A stretch of 63,908 nucleotides of DNA from Methanolinea sp. (lineage in GTDB: Archaea; Halobacteriota; Methanomicrobia; Methanomicrobiales; Methanospirillaceae): the NCBI GenBank assembly GCA_025453675.1, contig JALOPW010000009.1:1-63908 (forward strand), given 5' to 3'. The translations under genes were made by a program, and so were the position numbers. The notes beneath the pieces are model-generated. The model did no database searches. It saw only the letters and a list, made by a program, of their open reading frames with translations, and was not told the origin of the DNA. This document shows, one piece after another, positions 7,176-63,908 of this stretch. Positions within the stretch are counted from its first letter, which is position 1. Every line of letters starts with the position of its first letter.

Positions 7176-7778
7176 ATGGACTTTCTAGAGACGATTAAGG
7201 GGTTCCTCATGGAGCCGGTCCCTTCCTTCCGGAAGGCAAGGAAAACCCCGTTCGGGGACGCGATCAAGTATTACCTCATCCTTCTCATCATCAACGCCAT
7301 TCTCACGGTGATTGTGGAGCTGGTGATGGCCAGTGCAATCCTGTCAGCGATCAACCAGGCCATGGGCCAGATGGGGATGGGGGAACTGTTCCTTGTGGGG
7401 ACTGTCGGCGTGGTGGTCGGCGCCATCATCCTCGTGATCCTCTCTCTCATCCTGCTCTTCATCGTTGCGGGCTGGCTGCACATCTTTGTGTACCTGCTGG
7501 GCGGCAGAAAGGGGTATCTGGAGACGGTGAAGGCGCTGATCTTCGGGTCCACTCCCTACATGCTGATCGGCTGGATACCCGTCATCGGGATCATCGTCGG
7601 GGGTATCTGGTCACTGATCCTCGAGATCCTGGGCATCAGGGAACTGCACCAGGTCTCGACCGGAAGGGCCGTCGGTGCCGTCATCCTGGCCATGCTGATC
7701 CTTGTAATCATCATCGTATTCATCGCAGCCTGGTTCATCATCTCCCTCGTCAGCATCGAACCAGCGATGATGACCTGA
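7176..7778 (+). CDS. Yip1-family integral membrane protein (first paralogue)
   Basis: The 200-aa product starts with MDFLETIKGFLMEPVPSFRKAR, the usual Yip1-type N-terminus, and has about five hydrophobic helices. The hallmark is W.H.FVYLLGG(R/K)KG.L.TVKAL.F...P..L.GWIPVIG...GGIWSL. Family members are polytopic membrane proteins of unknown biochemical role in archaea. A paralogue lies at 24580-25167. A T6 run follows the stop, and a dispersed stem-loop element begins 112 nt further on. It is divergently transcribed from the membrane-tethered regulator. Confidence 0.85.
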   Translation: MDFLETIKGFLMEPVPSFRKARKTPFGDAIKYYLILLIINAILTVIVELVMASAILSAINQAMGQMGMGELFLVGTVGVVVGAIILVILSLILLFIVAGWLHIFVYLLGGRKGYLETVKALIFGSTPYMLIGWIPVIGIIVGGIWSLILEILGIRELHQVSTGRAVGAVILAMLILVIIIVFIAAWFIISLVSIEPAMMT

Positions 7779-7785
7779 TCCCCTC

Positions 7786-7791
7786 TTTTTT
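7786..7791 (+). terminator. T-run terminator after the Yip1 gene
   Basis: A run of six T lies 7 nt after the stop codon, in keeping with the oligo-T terminators of archaea. Confidence 0.5.
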
Positions 7792-7890: not shown

Positions 7891-8032
7891 AAAAAAACAA
7901 CATGATTCCCTTCGAGACACACGCATACAGAATGAAAAAGGCGAAGCCGTTTTGGTATGAAAACCGCATCCGCGGTTTTCATCAGGGGGGGGCATGTGAC
8001 CCGATGGTCTCATGTGCGGTTCATTAGAAAAA
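7891..8032 (-). repeat. Dispersed multi-stem-loop element, copy A
   Basis: The element is read on the minus strand. It holds a conserved head (CACATGAGAC..TCGGGTCACATGC), a perfect hairpin at 7957-7982 (11-bp arms ATGAAAACCGC, loop of 4), a second hairpin at 7935-7953 and a tail (CGAAGGGAATCATG) ending in a T run at 7891-7897. Copies B and C share the order of head and hairpins with base changes. No protein is implied. The T-run end suggests a transcribed RNA or a terminator. Confidence 0.8.
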
Positions 8033-19152: not shown

Positions 19153-20096
19153 GCGGGGAGACGATGCATGTCTACTTCCTGGGGACCGCGGCAGCGCTCC
19201 CCACCCCCATGCGAAACCCCGCCTGCATCATGATCAAGCGGGGCCGCGATACCCTCCTCTTCGACTGCGGGGAGGGTGCCCAGCAGCAGATGATGAGGGC
19301 CAGGACCGGATTTTTGGTGGACGCGGTCTTCATCACCCACTGGCATGCCGACCATTTCCTGGGATTGTTCGGCCTCTCCCAGACCCTCTCGTTCATGGGA
19401 CGGACCGAGCCCCTGACCATCTACGGCCCCGAATGGGTCCACGACGTCGCGGCATCCGTGAGGACCCTCTCGCGGTACAACGTGAAATTTCCTATCCAGT
19501 CAGTGGAGCTCCGGCACGGATCCACGGTGCGGTTTGACGGGTATACCGTGCAGGCATTCGAGACCTCCCACGGCATGGCAGGGCTCGGTTACATCCTCGA
19601 GGAGGACGAGAGGCCGGGACGGTTCAACCGCCAGCGGGCCATCGAACTCGGGGTTCCCCCCGGGCCACTCTTCGGGCGGCTGCAGCGCGGGGAGACCGTC
19701 TGCATCGCACGGGACGGGAACGGGGTTGAAATCAGGCCGGAAGAGGTCATGGGGCAGCCGCGGCCGGGGCGGAAGATCGTCTACACCGGGGACACCCGCC
19801 CGATCCACTCCCGTATCCGGGAGGTGGCAATGGCGCCGGATCTCCTGATCCACGACGCTACCTACGACGACCAGGCCATGGACCGGGCCAGGGAGGTTCT
19901 CCACTCCACCGCGGGGGAGGCAGGAGAGGCGGCGGAATTCCTCCACGCCCGCATGCTCGCCCTGGTCCATATCAGTTCCCGTTATACCACCACCGCCGGC
20001 CACCATAAGGACGCTTCTGCACGATTCAGCGGCCAGGTGATGGTACCCTCCGATCTGGAGATGCTGGAGATTCCCTTCCGCGATTCCGACGAATGA
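19149..20096 (+). CDS. rnz: Ribonuclease Z (tRNA 3' processing)
   Basis: The 315-aa product is a metallo-beta-lactamase of the ElaC/RNase Z type. The signature HWHADH is at residues 64-69, and FLGTAAALPTPMRN, FDCGEG, FETSHGMAGLGYI, YTGDTRP, HDATYDD and ALVHISSRY follow in order. It cleaves tRNA precursors after the discriminator base; the tRNA in this window lacks an encoded CCA, so this step would be needed. The start overlaps the upstream stop (ATGA) and has GAGGGGTG about 6 nt upstream; MHVYFLG at 19164 is an alternative. Confidence 0.93.
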   Translation: MSGETMHVYFLGTAAALPTPMRNPACIMIKRGRDTLLFDCGEGAQQQMMRARTGFLVDAVFITHWHADHFLGLFGLSQTLSFMGRTEPLTIYGPEWVHDVAASVRTLSRYNVKFPIQSVELRHGSTVRFDGYTVQAFETSHGMAGLGYILEEDERPGRFNRQRAIELGVPPGPLFGRLQRGETVCIARDGNGVEIRPEEVMGQPRPGRKIVYTGDTRPIHSRIREVAMAPDLLIHDATYDDQAMDRAREVLHSTAGEAGEAAEFLHARMLALVHISSRYTTTAGHHKDASARFSGQVMVPSDLEMLEIPFRDSDE

Positions 20097-24579: not shown

Positions 24580-25167
24580 ATGAGCACGCCCATCCTGGAG
24601 AAAATTCGGGGATTCATGTTCAATCCTTCATTGGCCTTCCGGAAGGTGAAGGACGAGGAGGCGGGGGAGACCATCAAGTACCTGATGGTCCTGGCGATCT
24701 TCTATGCCATCATGAGCACGCTGCTGACCGTGATCAATATTTTTATACACCCCTTCCTGGGGATCTCACCGATGGAGCCCGCTCCTGCAGAACCTCTCCT
24801 CATCATCTCCTGGATATTCGTAATCCTTGTCATCACCCTGATTATTGCCGTATTCTTTGGGTTATGGCTGCACCTCTTTGTGTTCCTGCTTGGAGGTCGG
24901 AAGGGCGTGTGGCAGACGGAAAAGAGCGTGTTCTATAACCTGACCCCGACTCTCCTGCTGGGATGGATTCCCGTGATTGGTCCGCTGGTAGGCGGAGTGT
25001 GGTCCGTGATCATCGGGGTCATCGGGGTCAAAGAACTGCAGGACCTCTCTGATACGAAAGCAGCACTTGCGGTGGTGCTCGCAATAGTCATCGCTGCTAT
25101 CCTGGCGGTGCTGATACTGGGTGCCATGCTCCTCGCAGTGGTCTCATCCCTTTCAATGACCGTATAA
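24580..25167 (+). CDS. Yip1-family integral membrane protein (second paralogue)
   Basis: The 195-aa product is clearly related to the gene at 7176: N-terminus with IRGFMFNPSLAFRKVKDEE, five hydrophobic segments, W.HLFVFLLGGRKG, and GWIPVIGPLVGGVWSVIIGVIGVKELQ. Role unknown; Yip1-type proteins are polytopic membrane proteins. A T6 run begins 2 nt after the stop, and dispersed stem-loop element B starts at the same place. Confidence 0.85.
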   Translation: MSTPILEKIRGFMFNPSLAFRKVKDEEAGETIKYLMVLAIFYAIMSTLLTVINIFIHPFLGISPMEPAPAEPLLIISWIFVILVITLIIAVFFGLWLHLFVFLLGGRKGVWQTEKSVFYNLTPTLLLGWIPVIGPLVGGVWSVIIGVIGVKELQDLSDTKAALAVVLAIVIAAILAVLILGAMLLAVVSSLSMTV

Positions 25168-25169
25168 CC

Positions 25170-25382
25170 TTTTTTCGAATGAAACGCACATGAGACTGTC
25201 GGGTCACATGCCCCCCTGATGAAAACCGCAGATGCGGTTTTCATACCAAAATCACTTCGTGATTTTCATGAATTATGTCCGAAATCCTGAAAAGAGTTCA
25301 TGTAAGGTGAAAATGAAAATGGCTGCGCCATGTTCATGAATGCGTATGCGTGTGTCTCGAAGCGAATCATGTAGTTTTTTTT
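25170..25382 (+). repeat. Dispersed multi-stem-loop element, copy B
   Basis: This is the longest copy. In order it has a head (CACATGAGAC..TCGGGTCACATGC), hairpin 1 at 25219-25244 (11-bp arms) and hairpin 2 at 25248-25266 (perfect 8-bp arms AAAATCAC/GTGATTTT, loop TTC). An insert with a third imperfect hairpin around GGCTGCGCC (about 25315-25340) follows, then a tail (GAAGCGAATCATG) and a T9 run at 25374-25382. It fills the whole space between two convergent genes. Confidence 0.85.
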
Positions 25383-27792: not shown

Positions 27793-27936
27793 CGACTCGA
27801 AATCGCGCCCCATTGTGCCGGGGTAATGTGGCACGCTCTTTTTTCCCCCCAACCCTCCTCGTATATCCCCTGTAAAAGCGTCAATGCGAAAAAGTATGGT
27901 TGTTCAACCCACGATCAGAGTTGATTGGGATCTTTG

Positions 27937-28400
27937 ACCGGAGGGGGTTCGCACCCCCTCCGGGCCTCCCCTGCACACGATAGGTCCCCGGCAGGGTTTT
28001 CTGGGACAGAATCAATCATGACTTTTCCTCCAGCACTGGACCTATCGCATTGGGGGGATGCCACAACGGCGGGGCGGAGCCCCAAGAGTGTCGAGGTGAG
28101 GAGTGCGGTTTTTGCGAATGTTCCAGAAAGAACAGGGCTCTTTGACCGGAGGGGGTTCGCACCCCCTCCGGAACCACCCCGTAACTCCCGCAGGAAAGAG
28201 CGCCTCGCTCGGGGACCCGGAGGGTTGGGGCCTTACGGCCACCTCCTGCTCTTTAGGAACGTTATCGTAAAAGAGTGCGGTTACCACCTGATCGGAGGGG
28301 GTTCGCACCCCCTCCGGAACCACCCCATAACTCCCGCAGGAAAGAGCGCCTCGCTCGGGGACCCGGGAGGGTTGGGGCCTTACGGCCACCTCCTGCTCTC
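27937..28400. repeat. GC-rich 3'-end repeat cluster (three identical hairpins)
   Basis: A perfect hairpin with 10-base arms (CCGGAGGGGG and complement) and loop TTCGCA occurs at 27938-27963 and 28146-28171, and again at about 28293-28317 with a shorter arm. A block with GGTTGGGGCCTTACGG is present at about 28226 and 28372, and GAAAGAGCGCCTCGCTCGG accompanies it in both. The last copy overlaps the 3' end of the TfuA gene and provides its stop codon. The family recurs at 46843 and 63815. Confidence 0.85.
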
Positions 28401-46842: not shown

Positions 46843-47245
46843 GCAGTTGGGGCGAGGAGCCCCAACCCTCCGGGTCCCCGAGCGAGGCGCTCTTTCCGCG
46901 GGTGCTACGGGGTGGGCCGGGAGGGGGTTCACCCCCTCTCGTCTGGTGAGAACCGGAGTTCTCCACCAGGCCCCCTCCGGTCAGGTGGAAACCGCACTCC
47001 TTGACGATGACGCTCCAGGGGCTCCGCCCTGCTGCTGTGGCGACCCCCCAATGCGATAGCCCCAGTGCTGGGGAGCAGTTGGGGCGAGGAGCCCCAACTG
47101 CGGGGGCTACGGGGTGGGCCGGGAGGGGGTTTTTCCCCTCCCGTCTGGTGGGAACCGGAGTTCTCCACCAGGCCCCCTCCTGCGGGGGCTACGGGGTGGG
47201 CCGGGAGGGGGTTTTTCCCCTCCCGTCTGGTGAGAACCGCATCAC
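46843..47245. repeat. GC-rich 3'-end repeat cluster, second locus
   Basis: The cluster starts right after the proS stop with TTGGGGC-GAGGA-GCCCCAA hairpins (about 46850 and 47090). CCGGGTCCCCGAGCGAGGCG follows, and two tandem copies, 82 nt apart, of a block with GTGGGCCGGGAGGGGG and its complement. It shares GCCCTG..GTGGCGACCCCCC with the inverted strand of the 27937-28400 cluster. Open frames inside it are shadows of the repeat. Confidence 0.8.
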
Positions 47246-47352
47246 ACAAAGAACACACAAAAAAACCGTGAATGCGGCTATCGCCGGGTCGCCCTGGGGT
47301 CGAGGAACGGAACCTCCGGCAGGAAAAAAGTGTGAAAAAACTGGCAAGGTCC

Positions 47353-49310: not shown

Positions 49311-49470
49311 GAAAAAACTACATGATTCTCTTCGAGATACAAGCATATACATTCATGAAACGGATATGAGACTCGTTGTCACATACCCATCATATGAAAA
49401 CCGCGGATGCGGTTTTCATGCCAAAATGGCGAAGCCGTTTTCATTCGGAAATGCCTCCGGCATTTTTATG
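49311..49470 (+). repeat. Dispersed multi-stem-loop element, copy C (rearranged)
   Basis: The core (from about 49352) has the family head (GATATGAGACT..TGTCACATAC), hairpin 1 at 49394-49419 (ATGAAAACCGC arms) and hairpin 2 at 49423-49441 (AAAATGGC/GCCGTTTT, loop GAA). A third hairpin follows at about 49449-49468 (AAATGCC/GGCATTT). The tail (CATGATTC...CGAGATAC), which in copies A and B lies after the core, is here found inverted in front of it at 49311-49350. Confidence 0.8.
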
Positions 49471-49697
49471 CGTCGGGTATGTTGCGAATTGCATCATTCT
49501 TGTTTTCATATTGAAAAAGGATTTGAATCCGGGTGTATCGCTCTTGCAGGAGAGAAAATTGGGAAAGGCAGGTTCAGTGATGGACGAATCATCCGCCTGT
49601 TCCGCCCCGCCATGTTCCAAATTGCGAAGTTTGATTTTCAGAACCGGATATTGTAAAGTATACACCCGAACCGCTCCGGGGGGGAAAGGGGCCTTCA

Positions 49698-52600
49698 GTG
49701 ATTTCGATTCTCTATGTGGATGACGAACCTGCGCTTTTGGAAATCGTCAGGCTTTACCTTGAACTGAGCGGCCAGTTCACTGTTGAGACCCTCACTTCAG
49801 CTGCCAGTGCCCTCGGGAAACTGAAGACCTGGGACTATGACGCCATCATTTCAGATTACCAGATGCCGGAAATGGACGGGATCGCATTTTTAAAAGCAGT
49901 TCGCGAGCAGCATGGAGACATCCCGTTTATCCTCTTTACCGGCCGTGGAAGAGAGGAGATTGTGATCCAGGCCATCAACTTTGGGGTTGACTTCTATCTC
50001 CAGAAAGGCGGTGACCCGAAGGCACAGTTTGCCGAACTTGCTCACAAGGTCCGCCAGGCCGTTGCACGGCGGCGGGCGGAACTCTCTCTCATCGAATCAG
50101 AGAAGCGACTCGCTGACCTCATCAACTTTCTGCCCGATGCGACGTTTGCCATTGACCGGTCCGGCAAGGTGATCGCATGGAACCGCGCCATCGAGGAAAT
50201 GACCGGCATTTCTGCCTCTGATATACTGGGAAAAGGTGATTTTGAGTATGCGATCCCGTTCTACGGCATACGGCGCAAGATACTCATCGACCTGATATTC
50301 GAATCAGAAGAGGTTATTGCAAAATCTTATTCGCACATCATTCATGAAAAAGACATCCTTATCGCAGATACCACGCTACCCCGCCCGAAAGGGAGATTGG
50401 TCACGCTGATGGGCACGGCAAGCCCGCTCTATGACCGGCAGGGAGCGATTGTAGGGGCGATCGAGTCCATACGCGACATCACGGAGTTGAAAAAAACAGA
50501 AGAGGAGCTCCGTGCGGCAAACGAACAACTTGCAGCGTCTGACGAGGAACTGAGATGTCAGATCGAGGAACTGGCAAAAAGCGAGCAACAGGTCCGCGAG
50601 AGTGAGTTGCGGCTCCGCTACATGCTCGGTTTTTACGAGATGGCCAGACAACCGGAGAAAGAATTGCTCTCCTATGCAGTGGAAGGGGCAGGATCTGTGA
50701 CCGGAAGTTCCCTGGGATACGTAGCGTTTCTCAATGATGAAGAGACCGAACTCATGATGTATGCGTGGTCGCAGACTGCCATGCAGGAGTGCTCCATGCG
50801 GGAGAAACCGATCATCTACCCGGTGGAGAAGACCGGGCTCTGGGGAGAGGCGGTCCGGCAGCGCCGGCCTGTCATCACCAACGATTACCAGGCCCCCAAT
50901 CCCGGAAAGAAGGGATATCCACAAGGGCACCCCCACATCACCCGGCACATGAACGTCCCCATCATGGATGGGGGGAATATCGTGATGGTTGCCGGGGTCG
51001 CGAACAAACCCTCCGATTATTCGGATAACGATGTGAGGCAGCTCACTGTATTGATGCAGGGGCTCTGGCATGTCTTACAAAGACGGCGGGCCGAGGATGA
51101 ACTCCGGGCTGCGAACGAACAACTTGCGGCGTCTGACGAGGAACTCCGCGGGCAGTATGAGGAACTGGCACAAAGCGAAAAGCGGATCCGGGAGAGTGAA
51201 GGAAAATACCGCGAGCTTGCCGAGATGCTGCCCCAGATCGTCTTCGAGATGGATACGGATCTGCGGATCACCTATGCGAACCAGTATGCCCAGAGGGCAT
51301 TTGGCCTGAAACCCGGTTTTCTTGAGCGTGGAGTAAACGCACTCTCCTGTATCGATCCTGCCCAGCACCAGCGCGCCCGGACGAGTATTGGAAATCTCCT
51401 CCACGGGATAGAGGATACAAATCCGGAATATACCGCCATTCGCATGGATGGGACCCCGTTTCCCGCAATGATCTATACGGCACCAGTTTTTCATGAAGGG
51501 GTGCTTTCCGGCTTCCGAGGGGTAGTCATCGATATCACGGACCGTAAAAATACCGAAGAAGCGCTTCAGGAGAGCGAGGAGCGGTTCAAAACCCTGTTCG
51601 AAAAATCTGCTGAAGCACAGATGCTGATTGATGGGACCGGAAAGATTACAGACTGCAACGACGCATTTCTCGCCCTCTTTGCATTGAAGGACAAAGAAGA
51701 GATCCGCGGGTATTCCCCTGAATATTTTGCCCCGGAATTTCAGCCTGATGGTGTTTCTTCTTCTGTTCGCGCTGATGAAATTTTTCGCACCGTAATGGAA
51801 GAAGGTCAGGCCCATTATGAGTGGGCGCACCAGAAGCACGATGCTGCCCGGACCCATATACTGACCGAGACGATTTTAACCCGTATCCATATCGCGGGAC
51901 AGCAGATGATCCATGCGAGTATCAGGGATATCACCGATAGGAAAAAGATCGAGGAGCACCTGCAGGAGAGCGAGGAGAAGTACAGGTCTCTTGTGGACCT
52001 TGCCCCGGATGCAGTGATCGTTGATCGCGATGGCGTTATTGTTTTTGCCAATCGTGAGTGTATCCGGCTTTCCGGAGCGGATTCAGCGGACGACCTCATA
52101 GGGAAGAGCATCATGCCGTTCATCCACCCGGACGACCGGCAGACAGCGCTTGAGCACTTTTCCCAGATGAGCGCATATGGCAGGACGATACCACTACATG
52201 AGCAGCGGCTGATCAGAGTCGACGGGCAACCGTTCCTGGCCGAGATCACCGCAAAACCGATCCTCTACGAGGGCAGGCCGTCCGTCATCAGCATCTTCCG
52301 GGACATCACCGAGCGCAAGCGGGTGGAATACGCCTTGCGGGAGAGCGAGGCAACGCTTGCCAGTATTTTCCGGGCGGCACCGGTCGGGATAGGGCTTGTC
52401 TCAAACCGGGTGATCCTTAAGGTCAATGACCGGATCTGTGAAATGACCGGGTATACCGGTGAGGAACTGGTGGGAAAAAGTGCCCGCGTCCTCTATCCCT
52501 CTGATGAGGATTTCGAGTATGTAGGAAGGGAAAAATACGAACAGATCAGGAAATACGGGACCGGTACGGTCGAGACCCGCTGGCAGCGCAAAGACGGTGA

Positions 52601-54506
52601 AATCCGGCAGATTCTGATCAGCTCGACACCACTCGACCCGGCTGACCATGCGAAAGGTGTGACGTTTACTGCGCTTGACATCACTGAGCGCAGGCGGGTG
52701 GAAGACGCGTTGCGGGAGAGTGAGGCAAAATTCCGGGCCATCATAGACCAGTCCTTCGAGTTCATCGGGCTGATGATCCTTGACGGTACATTGATTGAGG
52801 CAAACCGGGCTGCACTGCAGTTTGCCGGCATTTCAGCATCGGCAGTCATGAACCGACCTTTCTGGGAGACGCCGTGGTGGTCGCATTCTGCAGATTTGCA
52901 GGAGAGACTGAAAGATGCCATACGGAGGGCAGCATCCGGCGAAACAGTCCGGTTCGAGGCGACGCATCCTGCAGCCGACGGTCATCTTGCATATATCGAC
53001 TTCTCCATCAAGCCGGTGGAAGATTCAACCGGGAAAATCCTGTATCTGATTCCCGAAGGCCGGGACATTACCGAGCGGAAGAATGCCGAAGAGGCGCTCC
53101 GCGAGAGTGAGGAAAAATACCGGACAGTCGTTGAACAGAGCCAGGATGGGATATTTATCGCACAGGAAGGGCTGCTGGTCTTCCATAACACAGCGTTTGT
53201 CACCCTGACCGGATACCAGAGCGACGAACTGGATAGACGATCTATTGCTGACCTTATAGCACCTGAGGACCGGGAACTGGTGTTGACCCGGCACCGTGAA
53301 CGCCTCAAGGGGGAGACTCCCCCGGATGTCTATGAATTCTCTGTGCTGCACCATGATGGAAAGAGCCGGATCCCGGTCAAAATGATTATTGCTCCGGCAA
53401 CTTTCTGCGGAAAGCCGGCAACCCTCGGCACTCTCCACAATGTAATGGAAGATCGCGAGAGGGAACGTGTCCTTCGCGAGAGCGAGGAGCGATACCGGAG
53501 CGTCATCGAAAAGATCCACGAAGGGTTTGTAAGGGCGGATATTGAGGGCCGCATCGTCATGGCAAGCCCCTCTGCGGCTCGAATTTTGGGGTATACGACG
53601 GCTGATGAGATGATCGGCATGCCAATGGACGCCATCTACCTTTTCCAGGAGGACAGGCGGGTATTACTGGACCAGATACGCAAGTACAATGCTGTTGATG
53701 AGTACGAGGTCGAGTTCAAGAGGAAAGACGGCTCAACATTCTGGGGATCTCTCGATGCCCATCTTCTCTTTTACGAAAATGGTGAAGCATCGGGGACAGA
53801 GGCCGTGATTCGTGATATCACCGAACGAAAAAATATGGAAAATGCCATCCGGGAAGCGAACCGCAAACTCAACCTCCTGAACAGCATCACCCGCCATGAC
53901 GTGGCAAACCAGCTGACTATCCTGCAGGGGTTTATACAGGTTGCGGAGATGCACAATCCCGATCCGGTCCTGGCTGAATACCTTTCCCGGATGGAGGACA
54001 CGGCCAGTAGTATCTCGCACCAGATCGAGTTTACCAGGACCTACCAGGAGCTTGGCATCAACGCCCCGGCCTGGTTTAAAATAGGGGAGATTGTGGAGAA
54101 TACCCGCCTGCCCCAGGTGATGTTGTCGGATACCTGCAGCAGGTTCGAGGTATTTGCCGACCCGATGCTCGAGCGGGTATTTTTCAACCTCTTTGACAAT
54201 GCTGTCCGGCATGGCGGACAGGTGACACGGATCGTGGTCCGCTGTGAACCGTCAGCCGGGGGCCTGGCCATTGTGGTCGAGGACAACGGGAGAGGAATCC
54301 CGGATGACGAGAAAGAGAAGATTTTTTTGAGAGGATACGGGAAAAACAAGGGATTCGGCCTCTTCCTGGTCAGGGAGATCCTCGCCATCACCGGGATCTC
54401 GATACGGGAGACCGGCGTCCCGGGGGTTGGAGCCCGGTTCGAGATCCTCGTGCCGGAGGGGATGTTCCGGATTGTGCCGCAGAACACTCCCGGTTCGCAG
54501 GGTTGA
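49698..54506 (+). CDS. Hybrid histidine kinase: receiver, GAF and eight PAS domains
   Basis: The 1602-aa product starts at a GTG with a purine-rich GGGGAAAGGGG site upstream. Order: receiver domain (Asp8, Asp9, phospho-acceptor Asp53), PAS 1 (about 135-260), GAF (310-465), PAS 2-8 (about 497-1375), a dimerisation helix with His1400 in ITRHDVANQLT, and an ATPase domain (NAVRHGGQ, VEDNGRGIP, GFGLFLVREIL). The sensor is cytoplasmic: no membrane segment is visible. Many PAS units end with DIT(E/D)RK. The kinase has its receiver at the N-terminus, a common methanogen arrangement. No separate response regulator is adjacent. Dispersed element C lies upstream. Confidence 0.9.
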   Translation: MISILYVDDEPALLEIVRLYLELSGQFTVETLTSAASALGKLKTWDYDAIISDYQMPEMDGIAFLKAVREQHGDIPFILFTGRGREEIVIQAINFGVDFYLQKGGDPKAQFAELAHKVRQAVARRRAELSLIESEKRLADLINFLPDATFAIDRSGKVIAWNRAIEEMTGISASDILGKGDFEYAIPFYGIRRKILIDLIFESEEVIAKSYSHIIHEKDILIADTTLPRPKGRLVTLMGTASPLYDRQGAIVGAIESIRDITELKKTEEELRAANEQLAASDEELRCQIEELAKSEQQVRESELRLRYMLGFYEMARQPEKELLSYAVEGAGSVTGSSLGYVAFLNDEETELMMYAWSQTAMQECSMREKPIIYPVEKTGLWGEAVRQRRPVITNDYQAPNPGKKGYPQGHPHITRHMNVPIMDGGNIVMVAGVANKPSDYSDNDVRQLTVLMQGLWHVLQRRRAEDELRAANEQLAASDEELRGQYEELAQSEKRIRESEGKYRELAEMLPQIVFEMDTDLRITYANQYAQRAFGLKPGFLERGVNALSCIDPAQHQRARTSIGNLLHGIEDTNPEYTAIRMDGTPFPAMIYTAPVFHEGVLSGFRGVVIDITDRKNTEEALQESEERFKTLFEKSAEAQMLIDGTGKITDCNDAFLALFALKDKEEIRGYSPEYFAPEFQPDGVSSSVRADEIFRTVMEEGQAHYEWAHQKHDAARTHILTETILTRIHIAGQQMIHASIRDITDRKKIEEHLQESEEKYRSLVDLAPDAVIVDRDGVIVFANRECIRLSGADSADDLIGKSIMPFIHPDDRQTALEHFSQMSAYGRTIPLHEQRLIRVDGQPFLAEITAKPILYEGRPSVISIFRDITERKRVEYALRESEATLASIFRAAPVGIGLVSNRVILKVNDRICEMTGYTGEELVGKSARVLYPSDEDFEYVGREKYEQIRKYGTGTVETRWQRKDGEIRQILISSTPLDPADHAKGVTFTALDITERRRVEDALRESEAKFRAIIDQSFEFIGLMILDGTLIEANRAALQFAGISASAVMNRPFWETPWWSHSADLQERLKDAIRRAASGETVRFEATHPAADGHLAYIDFSIKPVEDSTGKILYLIPEGRDITERKNAEEALRESEEKYRTVVEQSQDGIFIAQEGLLVFHNTAFVTLTGYQSDELDRRSIADLIAPEDRELVLTRHRERLKGETPPDVYEFSVLHHDGKSRIPVKMIIAPATFCGKPATLGTLHNVMEDRERERVLRESEERYRSVIEKIHEGFVRADIEGRIVMASPSAARILGYTTADEMIGMPMDAIYLFQEDRRVLLDQIRKYNAVDEYEVEFKRKDGSTFWGSLDAHLLFYENGEASGTEAVIRDITERKNMENAIREANRKLNLLNSITRHDVANQLTILQGFIQVAEMHNPDPVLAEYLSRMEDTASSISHQIEFTRTYQELGINAPAWFKIGEIVENTRLPQVMLSDTCSRFEVFADPMLERVFFNLFDNAVRHGGQVTRIVVRCEPSAGGLAIVVEDNGRGIPDDEKEKIFLRGYGKNKGFGLFLVREILAITGISIRETGVPGVGARFEILVPEGMFRIVPQNTPGSQG

Positions 54507-63814: not shown

Positions 63815-63908
63815 GGGAGCAGTTGGGGCGACAGCCCCAACCCTCCGGGTCCCCGAGCGAGGCGCTCTTTCCCTCCGGGTCCCCGAGCGAGGCGCTCTTT
63901 CCCTCCGG
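63815..63908. repeat. GC-rich repeat with a 30-bp tandem array, running off the right edge
   Basis: A TTGGGGC-GACA-GCCCCAA hairpin (about 63824-63841) is followed by exact 30-bp units at 63841-63870 and 63871-63900 and the start of a third at 63901. Each unit has CCCTCCGGGTCCCCGAGCG. The same motif occurs once at the proS 3' end, so this copy has expanded. The array extends beyond the window. Confidence 0.9.

Follow-up and report, generated by a model that had tools for sequence, protein, structure and literature searches.

Short two-hairpin repeats in Methanolinea are probably small mobile units that insert at oligo-T tracts

We analyzed a stretch of 63,908 nt (the window) on contig JALOPW010000009.1 of Methanolinea sp. 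(GenBank assembly GCA_025453675.1). The named relatives of one protein from the window put the genome close to Methanolinea (Methanoregulaceae). The window contains three real copies, A, B and C, of a dispersed multi-hairpin repeat. All three share a head and a perfect 11-bp hairpin (hairpin 1), as a preliminary description of this DNA had claimed. Yip1-domain genes at 7176-7778 and 24616-25167 adjoin A and B, respectively, and this common neighborhood is probably due to chance. Convergent called genes flank copy B, which occupies the whole gap between them. Directly after copy C there is a gene for a response-regulator, GAF, multi-PAS histidine kinase of 1602 aa (49698-54506). There are two further repetitive features in the window: a long minus-strand ORF at 1-2313 with about three internal repeats (640-bp period), and another GC-rich dispersed hairpin repeat (CGGAGGGGGTT..CCCCCTCCGG with CCCTCCGGGTCCCCGAGCGAGGCGCTC) at 27927-28399, 46852-47262 and 63827-63902. 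Text like this last repeat also occurs at the site of the gene beside B in two other genomes, G012 and G004. The features of the three copies are as follows; hairpins and tracts were read directly from the sequence.

7786..7791, plus strand: empty T6 tract behind the Yip1-like gene, whose stop is at 7778; at locus L170 of a relative, a minimal unit occupies the orthologous T-run
7891..8032, minus strand: copy A, a composite of an H unit and an inverted T unit (model match 7891-7956, minus)
7891..7897, minus strand: distal T7 (A7 on the plus strand) closing the H unit of A
7932..7956, minus strand: hairpin of the H unit of A, with an A.G mismatch in the fourth apical pair
7957..7982, no strand assigned: hairpin of the T unit of A, perfect 11 bp, CCGC class
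7983..8032, minus strand: T tail of A and proximal T5 (A5 on the plus strand, 8028-8032)
25170..25382, plus strand: copy B (covariance-model match 25313-25381)
25219..25244, no strand assigned: perfect 11-bp hairpin of B, CCGC class
25245..25269, plus strand: second hairpin of B (TCAC/GTGA), perfect
25313..25382, plus strand: H unit of B, with hairpin 1, hairpin 2, GTAG and T8 (also a covariance-model match)
49312..49518, minus strand: copy C (covariance-model match 49311-49382, minus)
49394..49419, no strand assigned: perfect 11-bp hairpin of C, CCGC class

Copies A and C end in a T-run when read on the minus strand, copy B when read on the plus strand. Copy B consists of T6 (25170-25175), an inverted T unit, a TCAC hairpin with an S1-like tail, an H unit and T8 (25375-25382). 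In copy C the order is H tail, T-like module, CCGC hairpin, TGGC hairpin with a T.G wobble, inverted S2 unit and A5 on the plus strand. Copy C had been described as ending at 49470, and this end has to be moved, as the copy continues through the inverted S2 module to A5 at 49514-49518. The T-runs at the tails of A and B, which had been taken to suggest transcript ends, are real and still suggestive, although on the plus strand copy A shows A-runs at both of its ends (7891-7897 and 8028-8032). The arms of the second hairpin had been reported to differ between copies and still to pair. This is correct for B (TCAC/GTGA), which pairs perfectly, whereas C (TGGC/GCCG) keeps a T.G and A (AGGC/GCCG) keeps an A.G, so the example is compensatory only in part.

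The existence of a dispersed family was borne out in the source genome. A search with copy A gave at least 52 matches (40 of 101 candidates scored), and the pattern ATGAAAA-N(6-20)-TTTTCAT occurred 139 times per strand, compared to once for the reversed control. Matches to copy A were found in 12 of 13 genomes of the genus (source included), in 2 of 12 from the family's other genera and in 0 of 16 from elsewhere in the order. The genome-wide covariance-model search that had been proposed detected H units in 20 of 81 genomes and 6 of 31 genera: 11 of the 13 genomes in the genus, 7 of 36 in the family outside the genus and 2 of 32 in the order outside the family. There were at least 58 H units in the source genome and at least 42 in G005, and none were found in G006 or G007. 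This model contains the hairpin-2 pairs only, and 62 candidates were scored per genome with strict filters, so the counts are lower bounds. The matches in another family of the order (9 in G028 and 13 in G033, best E about 1e-6) are candidates. This patchy spread across genomes fits mobility. The earlier statement that no named family with this layout is known agrees with Rfam, which gave no match in the window at gathering score. With the limit raised to E 1, the sole match lies away from the copies, at 19791-19892.

To describe the layout of the repeats we used 75 islands around matches, the window included (243,677 nt, about 13% of the genome); the islands were picked among the matches listed and cover part of the copies. 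In them we counted 85 clusters, comprising 65 T, 50 H, 43 S1, 14 S2, 7 S4 and 5 S3 modules, in both orientations. The modules have a layout in common: hairpin 1 is separated by a short spacer from hairpin 2, which is weaker, and a CATnnnG-like end and a T-rich end follow. Hairpin 1, which has a constant base (ATGAAAA/TTTTCAT) and a variable paired top, is retained in the different sequence classes. Each module resembles a variant of a single unit of about 65 bp, and from the layout we infer that all of them descend from one unit type. Many H units end in GTAG, which is not fixed (GTGG, GTGA and GTTG also occur), and the T-run comes next. By eye, there is a weak CTA(C)ATGA match between CTA-ATGA and CTACATGA at the unit ends, and no clear terminal inverted repeat.

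Units were found single or stacked, in either orientation. Single minimal units are present in other species, and dimers stacked at T-runs were seen at L076, at L024 and, in the source genome, at C48:58049. At L065 (G006:C31, about 1180-1730) there is an 8-fold tandem of one unit that ends in TTTTTT, with a 68-bp period, in a genome where the H model finds no unit. We had considered a CRISPR-like array for these periodic matches; they are really the unit tandem, with near-identical spacers. From the minimal units, the dimers and the 8-fold tandem we read A, B and C as stacks of units. Units on source contigs C35, C36 and C19 seem to be interrupted by a second dispersed element, with GGGTAAA.. 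ends and a GGGGGCGGCGG hairpin, and text similar to it occurs in G005 and G008; the loci concerned are L057, L106 and L050, and also L077 and L136.

The units lie between genes. None of the 85 clusters in the sampled islands overlapped a called gene by more than 20 nt, with gene calls from a home-made finder that misses small genes. For the 49 clusters that bear an H unit, read in the T-run sense, the arrangements (E, element; arrows, flanking genes) were >E> 14, >E< 14, <E> 7, >E? 6 and <E< 4, with no called upstream gene in 4. The upstream gene is thus directed into the element in 34 of 45 clusters (binomial p 0.0004 against one half), and in 27 of these 34 the stop codon is 4-78 bp ahead of the element. 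The null of one half is a simple one; convergent gene pairs are favored by pneumococcal repeats as well (PMC3049150). At 26 sites in other species the upstream gene reads in at 16 of 21 (p 0.013). Tandem gene pairs from both sets gave 22 concordant and 7 discordant cases (p 0.004), and those from the other species alone gave 8 and 3 (p 0.11). A T-run of at least 5 was present within 18 nt upstream in 24 of the 49 H-bearing clusters, compared to 2.9% of 5,000 random intergenic positions, and a T-run of at least 6 was present at the H end in 37 of 49. The exceptions count against reading the units as mobile: the upstream gene reads away in 11 of 45 clusters, including A and C, and in 5 of 21 cases in other species, and an upstream T-run of at least 5 is absent in 25 of 49.

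This bias toward the 3' ends of genes would also be expected if the repeats were host-selected RNA elements, acting in 3' UTR processing, stability or termination, that were spread by duplication and kept for their RNA structure. Folding is consistent with such a role: two hairpins and a U-rich end beat shuffles in seven of eight unit consensus sequences that we wrote ourselves (z -2.6 to -5.0), with S2 at -1.9. Seven of the 49 H-bearing clusters lie between divergent genes, which argues against it, as do the state of orthologous sites in relatives and the changes within stems, both described below.

The orthologous sites tested in relatives were empty of these elements, and at several of them the stop codon is followed by a single bare T-run. 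At C41:23540 of the source genome a stop codon is followed by a T-run, where the element lies. The two flanks are joined at T7-T8 after the stop in G004, G012 and G002, with gaps of -5 to -2 nt, and G041 has a 176-nt gap with no unit. The unit is absent at C47:93444 in 3 of 3 relatives, with T-runs present, and at C32:24889 in 4 of 4. It is also absent at C39:23997 (3 of 3), C3:26876 (4 of 4) and C50:60015 (2 of 2; gaps of -9 in G041 and 306 in G004), and across these three sites the fit of the projected flanks is mostly poorer. At C43:109318 there is no unit in 4 of 4 relatives, and the joint is without a T-run, which counts against the mobile-unit reading. Only one flank of C14:14876 was found in relatives.

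At the site of B, the element is absent in all six genomes in which both flanking genes are adjacent (gaps of 31-147 nt), and G008 has a different sequence of 416 nt without a unit. The 11 loci of relatives around the neighbor gene of C are without a unit. Both flanks of C were found in G005 only, where the gap is -9; here the minus strand carries an oligo-T of 8 at a distance of about 20 nt from the projected joint. When seven units were compared by BLAST to 66 loci of relatives, units were found only in L170 and, incidentally, L277. The clearest filled and empty pair is behind the Yip1-like gene, where L170 has T7-unit-T7 and a bare T6 is present in L171, in L172 and in the window; L173 has what by eye is a decayed unit, under the BLAST threshold. 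Copy A is a different insertion from that in L170, as it lies 112 bp past the Yip1-like gene on the other strand. T-runs on both sides of the unit, in L170 and in many copies, reflect either a duplicated tract or a T-run borne by the unit. The units resemble MITEs in being short, non-coding, dispersed repeats with lineage-specific insertion, evident from the empty orthologous sites.

Changes within the hairpins were analyzed in 142 hairpins chosen by their base alone, 111 from the source genome and 31 from other loci, with perhaps a few unrelated ones among these 31. The hairpins fall into the classes TGGC, TGCC, TCAC, CCGC and TCGC. Of 66 tops of 11 nt, 53 form all four pairs (mean of shuffles 29.4, maximum 38); the count for tops of 12 nt is 50 of 73 (mean of shuffles 37.8, maximum 44). 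Among distinct tops, 13 of 26 of the 11-nt tops were fully paired (shuffled mean 5.0, maximum 11), as were 12 of 30 of the 12-nt tops (shuffled mean 6.3, maximum 13), a number that shuffles also reach. The picture within classes is different. A class was assigned to 139 hairpins. The stem is that of the class in 101 of them; one arm is changed in 30, both arms are changed and pair incompletely in 6, and compensation is full in 2. The one-arm changes are losses of a Watson-Crick pair, some of which become G.T. In the T-run sense the mismatches are 13 A.C, 6 G.T and 8 others; these numbers are small, and with A.C in excess over G.T they do not indicate that resident copies are selected at the RNA level.

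The preliminary description had taken compensatory changes as pointing to a structure under selection, either an RNA or a DNA cruciform. Compensation is present between hairpin classes, and there is hardly any within a class. Mutations that break pairing, which had been named in advance as speaking against selection, are largely what further copies show within classes (30 of 38 stem variants changed in one arm only). In hairpin 2 of 44 H units, 89.1% of cells pair, many through one-sided changes from U-A to U-G, which would suit an RNA, and the shuffled mean is 88.3%. Covariation in this hairpin was within the range of shuffling (85 of 500 shuffles as high) and not significant, and RNAalifold found no pairs in the alignment of these 44 units, in which the two lengths of hairpin 1 are out of register. 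With sites empty in relatives and stems decaying mostly one arm at a time, we consider host-selected RNA elements an unlikely account of the family.

The same counts bear on a process without selection on structure. Quasi-palindrome correction or template switching could have produced the paired arm changes and the flipped loops (TTC/GAA) as by-products, with spread by recombination. Such a process would account for loops in both orientations relative to modules, for modules inverted between hairpins in many composites, and for compensated two-arm changes being almost restricted to comparisons between classes (within classes, 2 of 38 variants). It leaves the oligo-T tracts, the orientation bias and the constant ATGAAAA/TTTTCAT base unexplained, and we regard it as quite improbable as the whole explanation. 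Quasi-palindrome correction may act alongside mobility.

The family is thus better explained by a mobile element than by a set of selected RNAs, and we prefer this reading because the sites are empty in relatives and the units tend toward oligo-T tracts. The pairing pattern is that expected of a mobile element, in which founder units needed the structure and resident copies drift, and it is not evidence of selection on each copy. The apparent compensatory changes are then explained by constraint on founder units and not on residents, which is a caution against taking covariation across repeat families as proof of a functional RNA.

We searched for an enzyme that could mobilize the units in four transposase and reverse transcriptase families. 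Y1_Tnp (PF01797) matched 0 of 13 genomes of the genus (control, 5 of 14 known genomes), and RVT_1 (PF00078) likewise matched 0 of 13, drafts included (control, 3 of 14 known genomes). DDE_Tnp_1 (PF01609) and IS110 (PF01548) had no match in the source genome and matched in 10 of 13 and 2 of 13 genomes of the genus, respectively. The candidates Y1/RAYT, reverse transcriptase, DDE_Tnp_1 and IS110 were set aside as mobilizers given the lack of a match in the source draft genome, and a retroposon copied by reverse transcriptase was rejected on the result for RVT_1. A mobilizer gene could have been missed, as the source assembly is a draft of 53 contigs with 94% completeness. Judged by eye only, ORFs in long gaps beside elements in the source-genome islands, outside the window, suggested no transposase. 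Among 12 transposase loci fetched from the genus (10 PF01609 and 2 PF01548), a unit was nearby in two, L285 and L290. We considered these units as ends of a parent element and read them instead as neighbors or targets. At L290 (G009:C66, about 694-2169) an H unit with an apparently cut hairpin 1 lies about 145 nt from an IS110-type transposase gene; perhaps the IS110 inserted into that hairpin. The mobilizer may have been lost from the source genome, or it may be of a type outside the four families searched.

These searches also bear on REP or REPIN-like elements mobilized by a Y1 (RAYT) transposase. Short, high-copy palindromes between genes would be typical of such elements, and many H units end in GTAG, the tag of a known superfamily of REPs (PMC3733652). 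Y1_Tnp nevertheless has no match in any of the 13 genomes although its control search succeeded, GTAG is variable and is followed by the T-run and not by a hairpin, and the pattern of empty sites indicates insertion at oligo-T. We therefore think a REP origin very improbable.

Taken together, the data make it likely that the repeats are small mobile units, about 65 bp long and non-autonomous, for which oligo-T tracts, in most cases terminators, serve as insertion sites. We suggest that a unit would insert in one orientation into an oligo-T tract, mostly the T-tract terminator of an archaeal gene. A T-run would then stand before and after the unit, either by duplication of the tract or because the unit brings its own. 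The terminator of the host gene would be preserved or renewed, so that insertion would be nearly harmless. The T-run end of each unit could be the target for the next, and tandem and composite elements would form in this way. The hairpins may be recognized, single-stranded or as a cruciform, by a putative trans-acting enzyme. Recognition of structure would require founders to pair, which would give several fully paired classes whose resident copies drift.

A more specific and rather doubtful version is that the oligo-T end serves as an address. A two-hairpin single strand, RNA or ssDNA, would pair its U- or T-run with the A-run of a terminator and be captured by host replication or repair or by an enzyme, renewing terminators and stacking units as it does so. 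No known hairpin-moving transposase would be at work, and the units would represent a new class of archaeal mobile element.

If the units are mobile as proposed, they would be an archaeal counterpart of BOX/SPRITE-type repeats whose landing places are visible from empty sites. Landing at oligo-T tracts, mainly terminators, would be a simple safe-haven strategy, and it would provide a route by which archaeal 3' UTRs and terminators get rewritten.

We place the family among small non-autonomous mobile repeats, apart from BOX, SPRITE, REP and proven MITEs. We recognized no described archaeal family of this kind among the matches listed in the open-licence literature, which is weak evidence of absence. 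Group IIC introns are retroelements that target terminators, and they are far longer than these units. The units resemble them in inserting, as we propose, behind terminators, and differ in having no Rfam match in the window and an RVT_1 match in 0 of 13 genomes of the genus.

REPs form subfamilies with alternative complementary stem residues, and GTAG REPs are tied to RAYTs (PMC3733652). The archaeal units are short palindromic repeats as well. They differ in that they end in a T-run, stack, and occur in a genus with a Y1 transposase match in 0 of 13 genomes; where GTAG REPs carry the tag directly at the palindrome end, GTAG here precedes the T-run and varies. MITEs have been described in Sulfolobus, Halobacterium, Haloquadratum, Desulfurococcus and several other archaeal genomes (PMC10969869). 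Like them, the family is small, non-coding and dispersed; by eye it shows no clear terminal inverted repeat, and a parent IS was not found among the four families searched.

By analogy, BOX and SPRITE of Streptococcus pneumoniae appear closest in kind, in a likeness that is architectural only. Both favor convergent gene pairs and both are read as parasitic (PMC3049150). BOX is short, modular and stem-loop forming, with a variable number of internal modules (PMC3049150). Its order is boxA-boxB(n)-boxC, with terminal inverted repeats and reported target-site duplications. The archaeal units are likewise short, modular and stem-loop forming, whereas their modules each look like a complete hairpin-plus-T-run unit, in both orientations and at oligo-T sites. 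SPRITE is a terminator-like repeat near gene 3' ends with AAAA/TTTT ends, one 18-bp duplex and a U-rich tract, and no comparable empty site was found for it in PMC3049150. The archaeal units are similarly terminator-like and close to gene 3' ends, with AAAA/TTTT as well, and they are distinguished from SPRITE by two hairpins, by stacking and by empty sites in relatives.
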